Positions 6,752 to 14,705 of a DNA stretch of 64,000 bases are shown piece by piece. The first letter of the stretch is position 1, and each line of letters begins with the position of its first letter. The notes under the pieces were generated by a model, which was not told the origin of the DNA, did not search any database, and saw only the letters and a program-made list of their open reading frames with translations. The DNA is taken from contig NZ_VLLL01000006.1 in the NCBI RefSeq assembly GCF_007994225.1, positions 1,488,001-1,552,000 of the forward strand, in the 5' to 3' direction. Origin of the DNA: Stackebrandtia albiflava. Lineage in GTDB: Bacteria > Actinomycetota > Actinomycetes > Mycobacteriales > Micromonosporaceae. A program made the position numbers and the translations under genes.

Positions 6752-7231
6752 ATGGCGAGGGAAACCGGACACAAGCTGATCACCTCGAATCGGCGTGCCC
6801 GACACGACTACGAGATCCTGGAGACCTACGAGGCGGGGATCGTGCTCACCGGTACCGAGGTGAAGTCGTTGCGGACCGGCCGGGCCTCGCTCGCCGACGC
6901 CTACGCCGACCTCCACAACGGCGAGGTGCGGATCCACGGCATCCACATCGCCGAGTACAGCCACGGAAGTTGGACCAACCACTCGCCTCGCCGCATCCGT
7001 AAACTGCTGCTGCACCGGGCCGAGATCGACAAGCTCACCGGGAAGCTCACCCAGAGCGGACTGACCCTCGTCCCGTTGTCCATGTACTTCAAGGACGGCT
7101 GGGCGAAGCTCGAACTCGGGCTGGCGCGAGGCAAGAAGACCTACGACAAGCGGCAGTCGATCGCCAAACGCGACGCCGACCGCGAGATCGAACGCGCCGT
7201 GCAGCGCCGGGCGAAGGGCCTGCGGGACTGA
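6752..7231 (+). CDS. smpB: SsrA-binding protein SmpB
   Basis: Small RNA-binding protein that brings tmRNA to stalled ribosomes for trans-translation. The 159 residues include the family blocks [55 protein letters not shown] and [10 protein letters not shown], and the basic C-terminal tail that mimics mRNA in the ribosome. The tmRNA gene itself follows about 360 bases downstream on the same strand, the usual pairing. Confidence 0.96.
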
Positions 7232-7594
7232 CGGTGCCCGGAACCACCCCGTTCGTCCGGTTCGGGTGACCGTGGCCCACTCCGTGGGCTCGGCCGACGG
7301 CGGTACGGGAGCTGCGAGGAAGGCCACAGCGCGGCCGGGCGGGTAACCGGAATGCGTTCCCGTGTCGCAGGCGTTAACATTGTCGAGCGTCGCCGGTGTA
7401 GCCGGTGGGCGCGTGATGTACCGAAACTGCATAGCGTGTACCGCACGATCCACGGGAGTACGTGGCCGGCCGCAGCCGGTCCCGACGACCGTCGGATCTC
7501 TCACCACTCGTCGGACCACCGGTTCGCGGCGCCTCCCCTGCGGAGGCGACGTCACCGAAGGCCCGGCGGGTACGCACCATACGCGACACCTCAA
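7232..7594. other. Intergenic region smpB-ssrA, no gene seen
   Basis: No convincing coding frame in 363 bases; the open frames here have poor codon structure and are shadows. A short GCCCAC/GTGGGC hairpin lies just after smpB. The promoter of ssrA must lie in this stretch or further upstream, but I cannot point to one with confidence. Confidence 0.5.
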
Positions 7595-7963
7595 GGGGCC
7601 GATCGGTTTCGACTCCGTACGTTGACGTAAGGGAAGCGGGTCGAGGAAGCCAACGTCGTCTCGTTAATCGTCGTTGGAAAACACAAATGCGAAGTCTAAT
7701 CGCAACGACTTCGCCCTCGCTGCATAAGCAGGGTTGAAGTCTGTCGGTCCAGGGGCGCGCCCGCCCTGGTCACCGGCATCATTTTAGGGCGCTAGGCGAA
7801 CGAATCGGCCACGGATTCGTGAGCGACATCTAACAGTGGCTGGAGCCCGTCACATCGACTTGTTCGCGTGATCGATGGGGCTTGAGGAAAGGCACTGCGA
7901 ACTGCACCCGGAGAAGCCTTACTGAGCCGGCGGAGGACCAGGGTTCGATTCCCTGCGGCTCCA
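7595..7963 (+). ncRNA. ssrA: tmRNA (transfer-messenger RNA)
   Basis: The 5' end GGGGCCGATCGGTTTCGAC and the 3' end GGTTCGATTCCCTGCGGCTCCA pair through seven acceptor bases (one G-U) and contain the T-arm. The tag frame starts at GCG 7689 and reads AKSNRNDFALAA followed by TAA (7725-7727), ending in the ALAA degradation signal. After the discriminator A the genome reads CGA rather than CCA, so the 3' CCA must be added by enzyme. About 369 bases, normal for the family. Confidence 0.96.
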
Positions 7964-8001
7964 CGAGCGGTACACGCCCCGGCGGAACGCCGGGATCTCG
8001 G

Positions 8002-8049
8002 ACGCCGACGGCGCCCCGGTCTCACGACCGTGGGCGCCGTCGGCGTTTT
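8002..8049 (+). terminator. Strong terminator downstream of ssrA
   Basis: Perfect 15-base arms (8002-8016 and 8032-8046) with a 15-base loop, followed by TTT. It sits 39 bases after the tmRNA 3' end and should end that transcript. Confidence 0.8.
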
Positions 8050-8169
8050 CGCACGTCAGGACACCGCGCGCGGGTCGCGTCGCATCGCCGCGATCGGGCC
8101 GTGCCGGAGACCGGTCGGCGCGGCCGGGGTGGGGTCTTCCCGGGGGCGCGCATGTCCGGGGACCCGGAT

Positions 8170-8757
8170 ATGGTGCGGCGCATGGAACATCCGGTCGGGG
8201 AGTCGTGGCGGCGTATCGCCGAGGGGCTTGAGCGGCTCGCTCCCGTGACGGCGGCGGCGATCCGTCCCGCAGTGGCGGCGGCCGAAGTCCGCCGCACGGT
8301 GGACGCCGTGGGGCGTCCACCGCCCACCGATCTGCTCCGGTGGTGGGGGTCGATGGACGGCATCGCCGACGAGGGGCACCACCCGGGCACCCCGATACCC
8401 CCGTTCTATCTGCCGTTGCCGGTGGCCGAGGTGCGAGACCGGCTCGCCGGGCTCGTGCGGTTCGTCGACGAGCAGTGCTGCGGCCCGGACGGTACGCACG
8501 CGCTCGCGGCCGGGCAGCCGTCGTTCGGTTTCTGTGCCGCCACCGTGCCGATCTGCCGGGACGTCGGTGGGGACCTGCTCGTGGTAGACCTCCGCGACGG
8601 TACCCGTCACGGCTGCGTCATGGAGTGGTCGGCCGAGTGCGGCTACTCGGAGCCGGTCTGGCCGGGAGTCGCCGACATGCTCGCCGACGTCGCGGACCGG
8701 CTCCACGACCCCACACAGACCGAGATCGTCGAAGGCGGTGTCCTGCAATGGCGCTGA
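8170..8757 (+). CDS. SUKH / SMI1-KNR4-type protein
   Basis: About 195 residues with the SUKH look: LLRWWGSMDG near residue 55-64, an aromatic FYLPLPVAEVRDRL stretch and a late VMEWSAECGY strand. SUKH proteins are known mainly as immunity proteins against secreted polymorphic toxins, though some have housekeeping roles. No toxin gene is adjacent. The start is uncertain: ATG 8170 has GGGGA nine bases upstream, with ATG 8152 and 8182 as alternatives. A longer frame would overlap the tmRNA and is rejected. Confidence 0.65.
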   Translation: MVRRMEHPVGESWRRIAEGLERLAPVTAAAIRPAVAAAEVRRTVDAVGRPPPTDLLRWWGSMDGIADEGHHPGTPIPPFYLPLPVAEVRDRLAGLVRFVDEQCCGPDGTHALAAGQPSFGFCAATVPICRDVGGDLLVVDLRDGTRHGCVMEWSAECGYSEPVWPGVADMLADVADRLHDPTQTEIVEGGVLQWR

Positions 8758-8856
8758 CCGCCCCGCGTCGGTGGTGATCGTCCACGCGTGTCGGTGGCCG
8801 TTTCGGCGACTACTCCGAGGCCACTGTGGAGTGATGACGGGTGAGGTGGTGAGAAG

Positions 8857-8985
8857 ATGAAGCAAGAGCTTGCGTCCTACGGTCCATATCGAGTCGGCGA
8901 TCTGATCGACATCTCCATGGAGCCCGTGGATGTGGAGGTCCTGTCCGGGACCGAGCGCTTCCTCACCGTGAGATGGCCGTGGTAG
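8857..8985 (+). pseudogene. Truncated copy (42 codons) of the 12706-13167 gene
   Basis: ATG 8857 opens a 42-codon frame ending RWPW-TAG. It aligns without gaps to the N-terminus of the intact protein encoded at 12706: YRVGDLIDISMEPVDVEV here against YRVGDLLRISMEVADAEV there, both then reaching RWPW. The upstream DNA is also alike (GGTGGTGAGAAG directly before both starts). The intact copy continues for about 110 residues after RWPW; this one stops. It is either a decayed duplicate or a deliberately short single-domain version. Confidence 0.6.
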
Positions 8986-9318
8986 GTGACGGACGCCCGC
9001 CGCGAACTGGAGGCCTAAGGGTTGTTGCTCTGTTGCCAGGGAGCGCGTCCGAACGTATATCCATCGGGGATGCAACGTCAGATGGAACTGGGACGTTACG
9101 CGTACATGCTGGAGCGGGCCAAGCGGCCTCTGGATGTGGTGGACGTTCTGGCACCCGCAGACCCCGGTGAGGTCGGGACCTTGGAGGAACAACGGCAGTT
9201 CGTGTTCGGGTTCTACGGACTGTCCCCGACGCGACGGTCCACGGGCCGCACTCCCGCCGATGCTGAGGAGCGTCCATGCTTAACGGCGATGTACGCAGCC
9301 GGTCCGAGTAGGGGCGGC
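8986..9318. other. Mostly unassigned stretch with a weak open frame
   Basis: A plus-strand frame runs from about 9022 in phase with the next gene and contains MELGRYAYMLERAKRPLDVV. It has no good start signal and I recognise no family. It may be an N-terminal extension of the next gene or a remnant of a lost gene. Confidence 0.35.
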
Positions 9319-9693
9319 ATGCTGTCACAGGTGTTGGAGTATGTCGACCCCGTGTCCGAGGCGGAACTCGACGAGCTGGAGGAGCTTTGTGCGGCTGCTA
9401 CGCCGGGGCCGTGGTTCGTCAGGGTCCTGGATGATGACGCGGCGATGAACTTGGTGGCCGTCAGCACTCGGGACGGTTCGCGATCGGCTACCGAGCCGTG
9501 GCCGCAGTTCGACAACGGCGAAATCGTCGCGGCTACGCTCGTGCAGTCGCCGCGATACGTGGACATCGATGACGAACGATGGGACGAGAACGCCGTGTTC
9601 ATTGCGGAAGCACGTGAGGCGGTTCCTCGCCTCGTGGCGGAGGTCCGCAGATTGAAGCGGCAGATCGAAAGCGTTTCGGGGCCGCTGCCGTGA
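9319..9693 (+). CDS. Small conserved-type protein (AATPGPW motif)
   Basis: A 124-residue soluble protein. The run LEELCAAATPGPW and the end FIAEAREAVPRLVAEVRRLKRQIE resemble a widespread small protein of actinomycetes and their phages that has no known function. Start ATG 9319 has AGGGG about six bases upstream, which is why I prefer it to the longer frame. Its TGA overlaps the GTG start of the next gene, so the two are probably translated together. Confidence 0.6.
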   Translation: MLSQVLEYVDPVSEAELDELEELCAAATPGPWFVRVLDDDAAMNLVAVSTRDGSRSATEPWPQFDNGEIVAATLVQSPRYVDIDDERWDENAVFIAEAREAVPRLVAEVRRLKRQIESVSGPLP

Positions 9694-9941
9694 TCGACTT
9701 GCCATTGACGAGAGCCCTGGTGGAACTCGTACTCTTCATCGACCAGAGTGACGAAGAGGTCGTGGACCCCGATGCGGCGGCGAACTGTATGCATTCACTT
9801 GCGGGTGGCTTCGACCGGCTGGATGGACAGCAGCGGGTCGAGATCGCCGAACTGCTGCGTGTCGTGGCTTCGGAACAGCGAGACGCGTCATCGCGTCGTC
9901 GCGTCAACGACCTTGTCCATGAGCTCGGCCTATCGGCATAG
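9690..9941 (+). CDS. Small unknown protein coupled to the previous gene
   Basis: 83 residues, mostly helical, with an acidic middle (DQSDEEVVDPDAA) and a basic SSRRR stretch near the end. GTG 9690 overlaps the preceding stop as GTGA, a classic translational coupling. No family recognised. Small overlapping partners in such accessory regions are often immunity or antitoxin proteins, but nothing in this sequence proves that. Confidence 0.5.
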   Translation: MIDLPLTRALVELVLFIDQSDEEVVDPDAAANCMHSLAGGFDRLDGQQRVEIAELLRVVASEQRDASSRRRVNDLVHELGLSA

Positions 9942-10225
9942 CCATGACCGTCATACCGGCGACAGTCGGCTTGGGTCCTTCCCACCTCGAACGCAGTCGA
10001 CATCCGGAACCGGCGGCAACGCACATGTGGCATGGACGCTTGATGCGGGCTGCTCATGTGCCTACCGTGGGCGCGGTGTGGAATGGATGAGTTGACGGCT
10101 CAAGACCTGCCATGCCCCGTCGCCTGAACCCGTTGAAACCATCACCGACATCCCCATCCACTGGCTACGTGCCGGCTGATGGTTCGGTATCGGCGAAACC
10201 GGTTGAGGGAGGCCGGTGTGATGCG
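9942..10225. other. Spacer between convergent genes
   Basis: A 48-codon frame (ATG 9944 to TGA 10090) begins two bases after the previous stop, but its composition is not convincing and I do not call it a gene. The rest shows no repeat or hairpin of note. Confidence 0.35.
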
Positions 10226-11701
10226 TCATCGGTGGCGGTAGAGGTCTTGCGGGGTTATCAGCGCAATGTCGTCCGCGTTGCCGGCCTCGGTTCGCAGGGA
10301 GTCGCTGAAGCCGGCGGTGGTGAAGTGGAGTAGCCGGGTACCGGTGGTGTCGTACTTTCCACTGTGCTCGATCAGGTCGCGGATGTGCCGGAGGCGTTCC
10401 AGGTGCGCGATGCCCATCGTTTCGCCCCACTTCGCCTCGCCGACGGCCAACAGTGGTGGCCTGCCCCCGTCACCGATCCCGATGACGGCCACATCCACTT
10501 CGTATCCGGTTCTGGCGGCCTGATCGGTGACGACGCCGTGGCCTACCCGCGCCGGTAGGCCACCGAACAGCTCGGGTGGCGCATGGTGCAGGCTCCAGTC
10601 CCGGCACAACTGCTCGAAGTGCGGACCGAGAACCTTGCTGCGGAACCGTTCGCGGCTCGCCTGCCAGACTCTGTCCCCCGATCCCGGTCGCTCCAGTTGT
10701 TCCCAGACCGGACGCATGATCGCGTGATAGAACCGGATCAGCGGTTCTGCGACCCGGTATGTGGTGCGGTTCGCGCGGAAGACGTCCGCGTCTCGGTACA
10801 ACAGGGCGGCGTCTTCGAGCACGCTGATCGGGTGGGAAAGGTCGGAGGCCTTCCTGCCGATGAAGTTCGCGATACCTCCCCGGGTGGCGTTACCGTTCGC
10901 CACAGCCGCCAGAACGGAGGTGTACAGGGCGGTGTCCCTCGCATCGACCTCCTCCGTGAGAAGGTATCGGGCCTCCCGGAACATCGGACTCTGGGGATTC
11001 AGGACGGTGCGGACAATCCAGTCGTCGAAGTCGGTGGCGTCTGCGGGGCTGTCGTTGCGCGCGAATTCCCGGCGATATGCCGGAGTGCCCCCGACCACGG
11101 CGTTCACCTTGATCGCCAATGTGGGGTCCGCGATGTCCCAGAAGTCGGCCGCCAGTGGGAATTCGAGCGGACGAATCACCAGTTCCAGCCCGGCGCGGCC
11201 TCGTAGCGGAGCGTTTCCCGCCAACAGTCTCCCCATGAACCCCATGGAGGAGCCGCACAGCAACAACCGGGTTCGTGAACGCGTCCGTTGCTCCCTCAGC
11301 GGTCGCAACGCCGCCTGAATCAGTGAGGGAATCTCCGGGTTGTTCCGGGCGAGGTAGGGGAACTCGTCGATCACCACCGGTACGGGCCGGTCCCGGCCCA
11401 GAGCCAGTACGGCGTCTATCGCTTCGGCCCAATCGTGGAAGTGGAAGGGGACGTCCGGGCTCACGTGGGCGGTCAGTGCGTCGCCGAAGCGTCGAAGTGA
11501 TTCGGCGTCGGTGGCCTCCGTAGCGCCGAAGTAGAACCCTCCCAGTGCGTGGCACAATGCCGCCAACAGGTATGTCTTGCCTTGCCGTCGCCTTCCACTG
11601 ACCACGCCGAGGGTGGCGCCGGGTTCGGTGTCGGTCGCGAAGCCGATGAGAGCCCGCCACTCGACGTCCCGGTCGAACATGTCCGCGGGTTTCGCGACCA
11701 C
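10226..11701 (-). CDS. ATPase of the DUF234 type with nuclease-like C-terminus
   Basis: A 491-residue soluble ATPase. The N-terminal domain has Walker A GRRRQGKT (36-43) and Walker B VVIDEFPYL (109-117), and a sensor-type LLLCGSS. The winged-helix middle is followed by a C-terminal DUF234-like part with E401-x-D403 and E422-A-K424, matching the PD-(D/E)xK nuclease core. Such archaeal-type ATPases are widespread on mobile and accessory DNA, and their role is unsettled. Start GTG 11701 is chosen because GGAGG lies six bases upstream and the promoter just beyond; an ATG further up would fall inside that promoter. Confidence 0.8.
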   Translation of the reverse strand: MVAKPADMFDRDVEWRALIGFATDTEPGATLGVVSGRRRQGKTYLLAALCHALGGFYFGATEATDAESLRRFGDALTAHVSPDVPFHFHDWAEAIDAVLALGRDRPVPVVIDEFPYLARNNPEIPSLIQAALRPLREQRTRSRTRLLLCGSSMGFMGRLLAGNAPLRGRAGLELVIRPLEFPLAADFWDIADPTLAIKVNAVVGGTPAYRREFARNDSPADATDFDDWIVRTVLNPQSPMFREARYLLTEEVDARDTALYTSVLAAVANGNATRGGIANFIGRKASDLSHPISVLEDAALLYRDADVFRANRTTYRVAEPLIRFYHAIMRPVWEQLERPGSGDRVWQASRERFRSKVLGPHFEQLCRDWSLHHAPPELFGGLPARVGHGVVTDQAARTGYEVDVAVIGIGDGGRPPLLAVGEAKWGETMGIAHLERLRHIRDLIEHSGKYDTTGTRLLHFTTAGFSDSLRTEAGNADDIALITPQDLYRHR

Positions 11702-11713
11702 TGACGGCCTCCA

Positions 11714-11752
11714 GTTATGAGAACTATACTTCTCATAACCATAGCTCTGCAA
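11714..11752 (-). promoter_or_regulatory. Promoter and perfect 10+6+10 palindrome of the ATPase gene
   Basis: Perfect inverted repeat GTTATGAGAA / TTCTCATAAC (11714-11723, 11730-11739) with a six-base centre. On the minus strand the centre contains the -10 hexamer TATAGT (11728-11723), with TTGCAG 18 bases upstream (11752-11747). A protein bound to the palindrome would block RNA polymerase. The predicted mRNA start (about 11716) is just before the GGAGG of the gene. Confidence 0.7.
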
Positions 11753-12017
11753 CTCTCCGTGTTGGGAAGATGGCCTGACTCAGGTGGTGTCTTACCGGCA
11801 ACGTCGACGTGGACGGCTACGGCGACGACACCATCACCGCGACCAACGGCCACACCCGTCCTGGCCCGCCGACTCCGAGGCGTGGGCCGATGCGATTCTT
11901 GGAGTTGGACGACATCGGCGGGAGGCCTGGTCGCTCGGGCCGCTAAGACGAGGGTGGTGAACCGGATATCGGCGGCACGTGCCGGCATCTCGTTGACGAT
12001 AGCTCTATGGAGATGGC
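11753..12017. other. Spacer with a possible gene remnant
   Basis: Around 11797-11850 one plus frame reads VDVDGYGDDTITATNG, an acidic Gly/Asp repeat like those in secreted calcium-binding or toxin-associated proteins, but it is flanked by frame breaks. It may be debris of a lost secreted toxin gene. Nothing else is seen. Confidence 0.25.
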
Positions 12018-12506
12018 TTGCATCTGAAACGTTATACGGAATCGTATGTTGCTCCAGTGCGTATCAAGGCCGTCAGGGATCATCTGGTCGATGTCGGCTT
12101 GCCGGCCTCGACCACCTTGTTCGTCGCCGCAGAACGGGCAACGGGTCTTGAGGAAGTCTCGCTTGCCAAGGAGACGGAGACGATTCTCAACATCGGCTAC
12201 GCGACAGAAGGAGAGGGTTTCTATGGGATCAACTGCCGTGACGGCAGTGTCGTATACATTGAGAGCCACAGTCACGCACTCTTCTTCGTGAATTCGGCAC
12301 CGTCCGCTTTCGTGGCATGTTTGGCGCTGTTCTACGACGAGAATTCGCGGGTTTCCTCAGAATCGGATCCCGAGGATTTCGAAAAGGCGGCTCGCTCGAT
12401 AGCCCGGCAGATTCATGACATCGACGAGCCGGCACTGGTGGAGGGCGGGTTCTGGCAAGACCTGCTCTTCGACGTGGCCCTGGGGGACTACGCCGAGGAA
12501 GCGTAA
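12018..12506 (+). CDS. SUKH-4-type putative immunity protein
   Basis: 162 residues with the SUKH-4 pattern: LPASTTLFVAA near 28-38, then ILNIGYATEGEGFYGINCRDGSVVYI, FFVNSAPSAFVACLALF and a closing FWQDLLFDVALGDY. SUKH-4 members are mostly immunity proteins of polymorphic toxin systems. The TTG start at 12018 has GGAGA five bases upstream. Base composition is less GC-rich than the housekeeping genes nearby, in line with an acquired gene. No toxin is visible beside it. Confidence 0.65.
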   Translation: MHLKRYTESYVAPVRIKAVRDHLVDVGLPASTTLFVAAERATGLEEVSLAKETETILNIGYATEGEGFYGINCRDGSVVYIESHSHALFFVNSAPSAFVACLALFYDENSRVSSESDPEDFEKAARSIARQIHDIDEPALVEGGFWQDLLFDVALGDYAEEA

Positions 12507-12507
12507 T

Positions 12508-12621
12508 GTGCCCGACAGCGATGTTCGCCGGACCCAACCCGTTTTCGAGTACCCGTGGAGCGGTCGATTACCCAGTCCCGAAGATTGGCCAAATGGCAGC
12601 TTGTTGTCGGAACGGTGGTGA
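12508..12621 (+). CDS. Tiny ORF coupled to the SUKH-4 gene
   Basis: GTG 12508 begins one base after the previous stop region, with GAGGAA eight bases upstream, and encodes 37 residues with three Trp and many Pro (for example FEYPWSGRLPSPEDW). It may be a real micro-protein or the broken tail of a larger gene. No family recognised. Confidence 0.3.
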   Translation: MPDSDVRRTQPVFEYPWSGRLPSPEDWPNGSLLSERW

Positions 12622-12705
12622 GACACGCGAGCTTCGGATTGCTCATACGTGTATCAACGGGTGAACAAGGTGTCGTGGATGTTTGGCTTGAGGGGTGGTG
12701 AGAAG

Positions 12706-13167
12706 GTGGAGCGTAAGATCTCGTCGCACGGCTCGTATCGGGTTGGTGATCTACTGCGGATATCGATGGAGGTAGCAGATGCGGAGGTGATGGCCACGAC
12801 CGAGCACTCGGTCATTCTGCGATGGCCGTGGTTCGTTCCCGATCCTGAGAATCCCGTTATCCGGTCAGGGGACGTAAGGCTGCCACGAACTGATGATGAA
12901 GCCTCTTGGCTCGATATTCCCTGGCGAACTGAACCCGACACGCCGTTTCTTTCGGTGGGCGACGTGTGTATGGTGGGAATACCTTCGACGGTCGTCAGGA
13001 TACTCTCTATCGTCCATTTTGATCCGCCAGTGAGTTTCGGTCGACTGCCTCGTCGAGAGTATGTTTTGGATGTCGTTCCTTTGGAATGGGAGGGCAATGA
13101 TGAAGCGGGATATGCAATTGAGCTGGATGCCGCTGAGCCTATTCGGATTGAACGGATAGAGCCGTAG
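12706..13167 (+). CDS. Unrecognised 153-residue protein, intact family member
   Basis: A soluble protein with a beta-rich look: YRVGDLLRISMEVADAEV at 10-27, RWPWFVPDP, DEASWLDIPWRTEPD and DVVPLEWEGNDEAGYAIEL. No known domain recognised. GTG 12706 is the start because the shared GGTGGTGAGAAG precedes it exactly as in the truncated copy at 8857. The repeated presence of this family in the same SUKH-rich stretch suggests an immunity or defence-related role; that is inference only. Confidence 0.55.
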   Translation: MERKISSHGSYRVGDLLRISMEVADAEVMATTEHSVILRWPWFVPDPENPVIRSGDVRLPRTDDEASWLDIPWRTEPDTPFLSVGDVCMVGIPSTVVRILSIVHFDPPVSFGRLPRREYVLDVVPLEWEGNDEAGYAIELDAAEPIRIERIEP

Positions 13168-13342
13168 GCGTTAAGACGGGCATCCATTTTCTCGTTGAAA
13201 TATTCGGGCACATCTCCGGTCCTTGTTGACAGTCGATGTCTTTGCCCAGAGCCGGTCACGTCGGTATGGGACCCCAGGAGCCGTGACGGGATTGCGCGGG
13301 GTCGTCGGGCTCGGGCTCGGCGGCGGCACGGGGTGTCAGGGG

Positions 13343-13374
13343 TAGCATTCAGCGACTGTTCATTGTGAAGGAGC
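13343..13374 (+). promoter_or_regulatory. -10 and ribosome binding site of the acidic protein gene
   Basis: TAGCAT (13343-13348) is a good -10. AAGGAG (13369-13374) lies five bases before GTG 13380 and selects that start over the upstream GTG at 13365. Confidence 0.5.
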
Positions 13375-13379
13375 CACCT

Positions 13380-13808
13380 GTGAGCGATGCCGACAAGAAG
13401 CCGGAAGCCGTTGAGCCGGAAGCGAACGAGGTGAACGAGACCGACGCCGCCAAGGCGGACGCGGACGAGGCCGCCCCCGCCGCGGAGTCCACCGAGGCCG
13501 CCGAACCGGCTGCCGCCGAGGAGTCCGCGACCGACGCCGACGTCGCCGAGTCGGACGTCCCGCCGACCACCGAGGAGGCGGCCGCGGCCGACGCCGAGGA
13601 CGAAGACGGCGATGATGAAGACGAAGAAGACGACGAGGAGTCGTCATCATCCTCCTCTTCCTCCTCCTCGTCGAGTGGATCCGGTGAGGACGAGGACGAA
13701 GAAGACGACGAGGAGGACGCCCACGGTGAGGAACGCCAGGCGGACTCCGACGACGAAGACGCCGACAAGACCGACTCCGGCAAGGGCGACGCCGACGACA
13801 AGGGCTGA
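13380..13808 (+). CDS. Extremely acidic disordered protein with a 12-Ser run
   Basis: 142 residues, nearly all Asp, Glu, Ala, Ser, Pro and Thr. Twelve consecutive Ser (88-99) sit between two near-identical acidic blocks (DEDEEDDEE and EDEDEEDDEE). No signal peptide, membrane helix or fold is visible, so it should be disordered and cytoplasmic. The Ser run with acidic residues on both sides is the kind of site acidophilic Ser/Thr kinases use, and a kinase gene starts nine bases downstream. Substrate of that kinase is the simplest reading, but it is inference. The coding DNA is itself repetitive. Confidence 0.7.
   Translation: MSDADKKPEAVEPEANEVNETDAAKADADEAAPAAESTEAAEPAAAEESATDADVAESDVPPTTEEAAAADAEDEDGDDEDEEDDEESSSSSSSSSSSSGSGEDEDEEDDEEDAHGEERQADSDDEDADKTDSGKGDADDKG
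13620..13715 (+). repeat. 21-base direct repeat around a TCN tract
   Basis: The same 21 bases occur at 13620-13640 and 13695-13715, flanking 12 serine codons (13641-13676). The GA-rich left part and CT-rich right part are also complementary (CGACGAGGAG / CTCCTCGTCG), so the tract can fold back. Such DNA is prone to slippage. Confidence 0.7.
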
Positions 13809-13817
13809 TCGCCACCG

Positions 13818-14705
13818 ATGAACGACACGATTCGGGCGGCTTCACCGCCGCCCGGCCACGTCAGCGGGGCGGGTTCGCAGGCGGGGGACTCGGTGGGGGG
13901 CCATCGAATCGTCAATGCCGTCCGATTGCGCGGGTGCGCGGCGATCTACCGTGCCACCGCACCGGACGGCAGCCCGGTGGCGCTGAAGACGCAGTGCGTC
14001 GCGGCACCGAAACGGCTTCGGCTGCGGATGGACAACGAGATCGCGGCCCACCGCCGGCTCGCCGGTATCGCACCGGTGGCGACACTCGTCGACACCGGAA
14101 CCGACGGCGACCAGCGGTTCGTGGCCGCGGAGTGGCGTCCCGGTGTGCCGCTGCGACGCATGGCGGAACACACCGGCATCTCCCCGCGTGTCGAGTCGGC
14201 CGAAGCCGCCGCGCTTCTCCCGGTGCTCGCGGTCGCGGTGAGTGAGGCGGTAGCCCGTCTCCACACGGCGGACGTGGCCCACGGTGACCTGAGCCGCTTC
14301 AACGTATTGGCCGCAGTGGATGACCGCGTGAGTCTCATCGACCTGGAGAGCGCGCTGGTCGTATCGGACCCGGATCCGCTGCCGGTGCGTCGCAAGGTGA
14401 CCTGGAGCTACGCGCCACCGGAGTTCGCCGACCGGGTACGTCCGTCCAAGGCCGCCGACCAGTACTCACTGGCGGCGGTGTTGTTCCGGCAGCTCACCGG
14501 AAGACGCCACCGCATCCCCGTTCCCGGCGCCGCGCCGGATTCCGCTCAGGCACTCGGTGCGCGAGTGCGGGTGGTCGCCGGATGGCACGCGCGACGCTGG
14601 CCGGGCCTCCTCCGGGTGTTCGCCCGTGCCCTCGCCACCGATCCTTCGGAACGGTACGGCGACGTCGCCGAGTTCACCGAGGCCCTGCGGCATGCGTTCG
14701 TCTGA
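13818..14705 (+). CDS. Atypical Ser/Thr protein kinase, soluble
   Basis: 295 residues with no membrane helix. Kinase features: VALK lysine K57, E74 of helix C, catalytic loop HGDLSRFN (155-162) with D157 and N162, and DLE in place of DFG (175-177). The glycine loop is degenerate (RLRGCAAIYRA). All metal and catalytic positions remain plausible, so activity is likely, yet both HGD and DLE are unusual. It starts nine bases after the acidic poly-Ser gene and probably shares its mRNA. It could instead phosphorylate a small molecule, as several kinase-fold enzymes do. Confidence 0.75.
   Translation: MNDTIRAASPPPGHVSGAGSQAGDSVGGHRIVNAVRLRGCAAIYRATAPDGSPVALKTQCVAAPKRLRLRMDNEIAAHRRLAGIAPVATLVDTGTDGDQRFVAAEWRPGVPLRRMAEHTGISPRVESAEAAALLPVLAVAVSEAVARLHTADVAHGDLSRFNVLAAVDDRVSLIDLESALVVSDPDPLPVRRKVTWSYAPPEFADRVRPSKAADQYSLAAVLFRQLTGRRHRIPVPGAAPDSAQALGARVRVVAGWHARRWPGLLRVFARALATDPSERYGDVAEFTEALRHAFV

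Follow-up and report, generated by a model that had tools for sequence, protein, structure and literature searches.

The window, that is, the whole stretch of 64,000 nucleotides of Stackebrandtia albiflava DNA that was analysed, carries two adjacent genes, the first for a disordered poly-Ser protein and the second for a stand-alone kinase (Table 1). The earlier note had described this pair as a 142-residue acidic protein with 12 Ser residues and, nine bases on, a kinase with HGD and DLE motifs, and both the coordinates and the motifs were confirmed: the poly-Ser gene begins with GTG behind a ribosome site of the GGAG type, and the ATG of the kinase gene stands at 13818, nine bases past the poly-Ser stop codon. 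The 142-residue protein contains 60 Asp/Glu and 7 Lys/Arg residues and no aromatic ones, with a computed charge of about -53. Its Ser run is encoded by TCG TCA TCA TCC TCC TCT TCC TCC TCC TCG TCG AGT, and a run of at least 12 Ser was obtained in none of 200,000 shuffles of the protein's own residues.

Table 1. Features of the window around the poly-Ser gene and the kinase gene.
Feature	Positions	Strand	Remarks
smpB-like ORF	6752-7231		
tmRNA gene	7595-7964		follows the smpB-like ORF
G+C dip (0.57-0.60)	~11.5-13.5 kb		past the tmRNA gene; ATPase-like ORF and SUKH-4 immunity gene
Antisense ORF with poly-Ser and acidic runs	13349-13915	-	mirror effect of GAN/TCN codons
Disordered acidic poly-Ser protein, predicted kinase substrate, 142 aa	13380..13808	+	orthologues in three other Stackebrandtia, each beside a kinase
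Run of 12 Ser codons, Ser88-Ser99, uninterrupted	13641..13676	+	12 residues long in G002 and G003 as well; 4+10 in G004
HGEER motif, residues 115-119	13722..13736	+	H, G, E and R invariant in 4/4 proteins
Stand-alone protein kinase, 295 aa	13818..14705	+	Pfam Pkinase, 9e-13

The co-occurrence of the two genes was followed in 355 genomes of the family, five of them of Stackebrandtia, including the source genome (G000). A profile of the Ser module retrieved four of the 355 genomes at E<=0.01, all of them Stackebrandtia, and a kinase profile retrieved the same four at orthologue-level scores; neither the kinase nor the Ser module was found at these thresholds in the 350 family genomes outside the genus, and the fifth Stackebrandtia genome (G001) had neither the kinase nor a poly-Ser gene. 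A sample of 396 genomes from the phylum gave no convincing match to the Ser module, and the weak ones (E 0.02-0.09) are likely to be chance acidic low-complexity segments. The kinase orthologues in the other three carriers (G002, G003 and G004, the last of which we take to be S. nassauensis DSM 44728) are about 46-50% identical to that of the window. Thus, the search for the pair in other genomes, proposed in the earlier note, gave four of five Stackebrandtia with both genes, the poly-Ser gene lying directly upstream of the kinase gene and in the same order in all four carriers, so that every kinase-carrying genome has the partner gene linked, as would be expected of a dedicated pair. A failure of the genes to co-occur in relatives, which the earlier note had named as a refutation, was thus not seen. 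The stop and start codons overlap by 4 nt in G002 and G003, while a gap of 9 nt separates the genes in the window and of 25 nt in S. nassauensis. This evidence of co-inheritance comes from four genomes of a single genus, which restricts its generality as well.

Within about 8 kb on each side the four loci share only the pair, beside weak matches of a paralogue type (31-32% identity, large proteins), and over 60-100 kb on each side (in G002, up to the contig ends) few reciprocal matches were found between the loci, with no constant third gene beside the pair. Among the genes downstream, none is conserved across the four loci, be it a partner phosphatase or another. The pair therefore persists as a unit in surroundings that differ at each locus. 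A search of plasmids and phages gave no match to the pair, and its spread by either was rejected as an explanation.

In the window, as in G002 and in G003, the run is 12 Ser long, whereas in S. nassauensis Glu splits it into 4+10; as to whether the Ser number varies, a question raised in the earlier note, it is thus steady in three species and departs from this in the fourth. All four proteins carry a short HG-[DES]-E-R motif after the Ser run, which is the sole conserved non-repetitive element of the predicted substrate. Three of the proteins are polyanionic (computed charge -49 to -72), while in that of S. nassauensis the acidic part is short and is joined to a tail of 195 residues with 73 Lys, 53 Ala and 45 Thr, which by eye resembles the tails of histone H1-like proteins, with no Pfam match (Ser-HGxER module and Lys/Ala/Thr tail at L009 732-1475). 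The conserved unit is the Ser run with HGxER, because the remainder of the protein varies; as judged from the sequences, the acidic context is variable, and the Ser module and the kinase are constant. The flanking acidic residues, which the earlier note had linked to the preference of acidophilic kinases, are thus not the constant part. They are few in S. nassauensis, whose protein carries a basic tail, so that recognition by an acidophilic kinase is not established.

Only 3-4 of 12 codons are identical between the aligned Ser runs, and TCN and AGY codons are mixed in all four of them (a single AGT in the window). No single synonymous step interconverts TCN and AGY codons. Serine itself therefore seems to be under selection in the run, given the few shared codons and the two mixed codon boxes, and recent codon slippage as the origin of the present runs was judged unlikely on account of this mixing. 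The same data bear on the reading in which the run serves as a neutral spacer or works unmodified, the kinase and the protein being co-expressed but separate: low-complexity regions can indeed drift, but the linkage has outlasted a complete replacement of the neighbouring genes, and Ser has persisted although its codons come from two boxes, which makes such a reading decidedly unlikely.

The kinase has the features of the Hanks-type protein kinase fold, namely the Lys-Glu pair, the HxD...N loop, a DFG-like Asp and two lobes, with the HGD motif at residues 155-157 and DLE at 175-177, where Glu replaces the Gly of DFG; the residues K57, E74, H155, D157, N162 and D175 are invariant across 13 aligned kinases. 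The AlphaFold2 model (pLDDT 89.7) gave PknB-type Ser/Thr kinases as the top Foldseek matches, the lanthipeptide synthetase CuvL likewise ranking high, and the conserved N-terminal GHVxGxG motif is mostly of low confidence in this model. Action on a small molecule only, which the earlier note had set against its own proposal, is unlikely, because the fold is that of a protein kinase and the catalytic residues are fully intact. By its HGD loop the kinase is of the non-RD kind, for which activation-loop phosphorylation may be dispensable, and it is probably constitutively active. Among the invariants specific to the solo kinases is an unusual S159-R160 in the catalytic loop (H/K/T-P in relatives), along with conserved R36, R113, R192 and R224; together, S159-R160 and the conserved Arg residues could favour acidic or phosphorylated substrates. 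The computed charge of the kinase (+3 to +8) is opposite in sign to that of the acidic partner.

The conserved adjacency of the two genes also fits a kinase held in check, that is, a pair of the antitoxin-toxin type or a pseudosubstrate, in which the disordered protein would restrain the kinase, with the Ser run as a decoy and the true target elsewhere. Such a partner is the main rival explanation, with the small protein encoded first, the 4-nt overlaps, the unshared flanking genes and the SUKH-4 immunity gene upstream in the window on its side, together with the best PADLOC match of the kinase, the anti-phage PD-T4-6 kinase (2e-21, 75 bits), which is however not diagnostic, being a profile match uncalibrated here, from a library without cut-offs, whose models match Ser/Thr kinases widely. 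Since no plasmid or phage match to the pair was obtained, and the conserved count of phosphorylatable Ser suits a substrate over a pseudosubstrate, this explanation is considered unlikely.

The best NCBIfam matches of the kinase are lanthipeptide synthetases, at 80 bits (the LanL profile) and 68 bits versus cut-offs of 650 and 575, and numerous ordinary kinases from these genomes reach 100-128 bits on the LanL profile, so that the match proves nothing alone; membership in the class III/IV lanthipeptide synthetases, which have a lyase-kinase-cyclase architecture, was rejected for a lone 295-residue kinase with scores far under the cut-offs. In a tree of 69 kinase domains the four Stackebrandtia kinases form a clade (100/98), followed by a solo kinase of Streptomyces sp. 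UNOB3_S3 (99/93; L058 4872-5906), which has no Ser-run neighbour, and then by three kinase-LanC fusions (100/99), while the canonical LanKC kinases stand elsewhere and more distant. The fusions have a LANC_like domain and no recognised lyase. Among their loci (L172 4305-4727, L173 7745-9378 and L174 1184-5858), L174 has a Frankia_peptide-like ORF nearby (E 4e-6, below cut-off), and L172 and L173 have small ORFs with a common LRVQLPC motif, so the fusions probably sit in RiPP loci, possibly undescribed ones without a recognised lyase; in two of the loci there is also an unclassified neighbour of 372-426 residues.

This computed kinship with kinases of RiPP-like loci raises the question of a RiPP-like pathway, in which a precursor would have its Ser residues phosphorylated before a lyase from elsewhere, such as the LanKC of the genome, dehydrated them; a LanKC is present above cut-off away from the pair in each carrier. 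In LanKC, the kinase domain phosphorylates Ser/Thr residues on a partner peptide (PMC10604976), and Micromonosporaceae kinase-LanC fusions (L014, L044 and L047) are among the nearest relatives of the kinase; however, the pair lacks the LanC domain, lyase and leader-core peptide of class III/IV lanthipeptide synthetases. At the four loci the pair has no conserved neighbour that encodes a lyase, cyclase, transporter or peptidase, none of the four poly-Ser proteins contains Cys, and their sizes (142-248 residues) are unlike those of a peptide core. A lanthipeptide-like route is thus less likely, given the lack of a linked lyase or cyclase and of Cys, and the RiPP-like reading as a whole is very unlikely. 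The peptidase gene nearby, considered as a possible third component, dropped out as well: orthologues of this prolyl aminopeptidase (64-68% identical) are unlinked to the pair, being 2.6 Mb distant in G003 and about 1.8 Mb in S. nassauensis.

The explanation preferred, somewhat better than evenly supported by the sequences, is that the pair forms a dedicated kinase-substrate module with a multiply phosphorylated Ser run. The poly-Ser protein and the kinase would be co-translated, the kinase would bind its partner, perhaps through the conserved HGxER as a possible docking site, and would phosphorylate the Ser run at many positions, which would give a single short segment at most about 24 extra negative charges; we infer that this charge would alter the binding of cations, basic proteins or nucleic acid by the carrier. 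A bolder and rather doubtful form is a phospho-charge switch, in which the kinase would write contiguous poly-phosphoserine on any Ser-HGxER carrier, whether polyanionic, as in three species, or histone-H1-like, as in S. nassauensis, and so control the electrostatics of the nucleoid or of condensates.

The earlier remark that no bacterial system of this form has been described needs correction, as CotH phosphorylates the disordered Ser-rich CotB/CotG at many sites in the Bacillus subtilis spore coat (PMC7821199). In both cases a kinase gene is clustered with Ser-rich disordered proteins; however, CotH is a distant relative of the Fam20C kinases and its targets are Ser/Lys/Arg repeats, whereas the actinomycete kinase has a PknB-like fold, its predicted phosphorylation lies in a contiguous Ser run, and Pfam assigns it to Pkinase with no CotH match. 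The pair would thus be analogous, not homologous, to CotH-CotB/CotG. In PASK (poly-acidic, Ser, Lys-rich) targets polyphosphate is attached to Lys non-enzymatically (PMC7008358); the S. nassauensis version likewise joins acidic, Ser- and Lys-rich stretches, but the pair includes a kinase gene, and the Lys tail is missing from three of the four versions. A minimal two-gene system writing a dense phosphoserine block was absent from the literature searched. If the preferred explanation is true, the substrate would be foretold by the gene neighbour, as is seldom the case with bacterial Ser/Thr kinases, and the pair would offer a compact bacterial model of multisite phosphorylation and charge-driven assembly.

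Antisense frames of the poly-Ser gene also read as poly-Ser, because reversed GAN codons are TCN codons, and the antisense ORF of Table 1 may mislead automatic annotation; such ORFs are mirror artefacts, since the HGxER motif and the kinase linkage occur only in the sense frame. A functional mRNA hairpin from the inverted codons was unsupported, being not significantly stronger than in shuffles (z -0.95). The G+C dip past the tmRNA gene may belong to an island at the end of the tmRNA gene, immediately before the pair (window positions 6752-13500).
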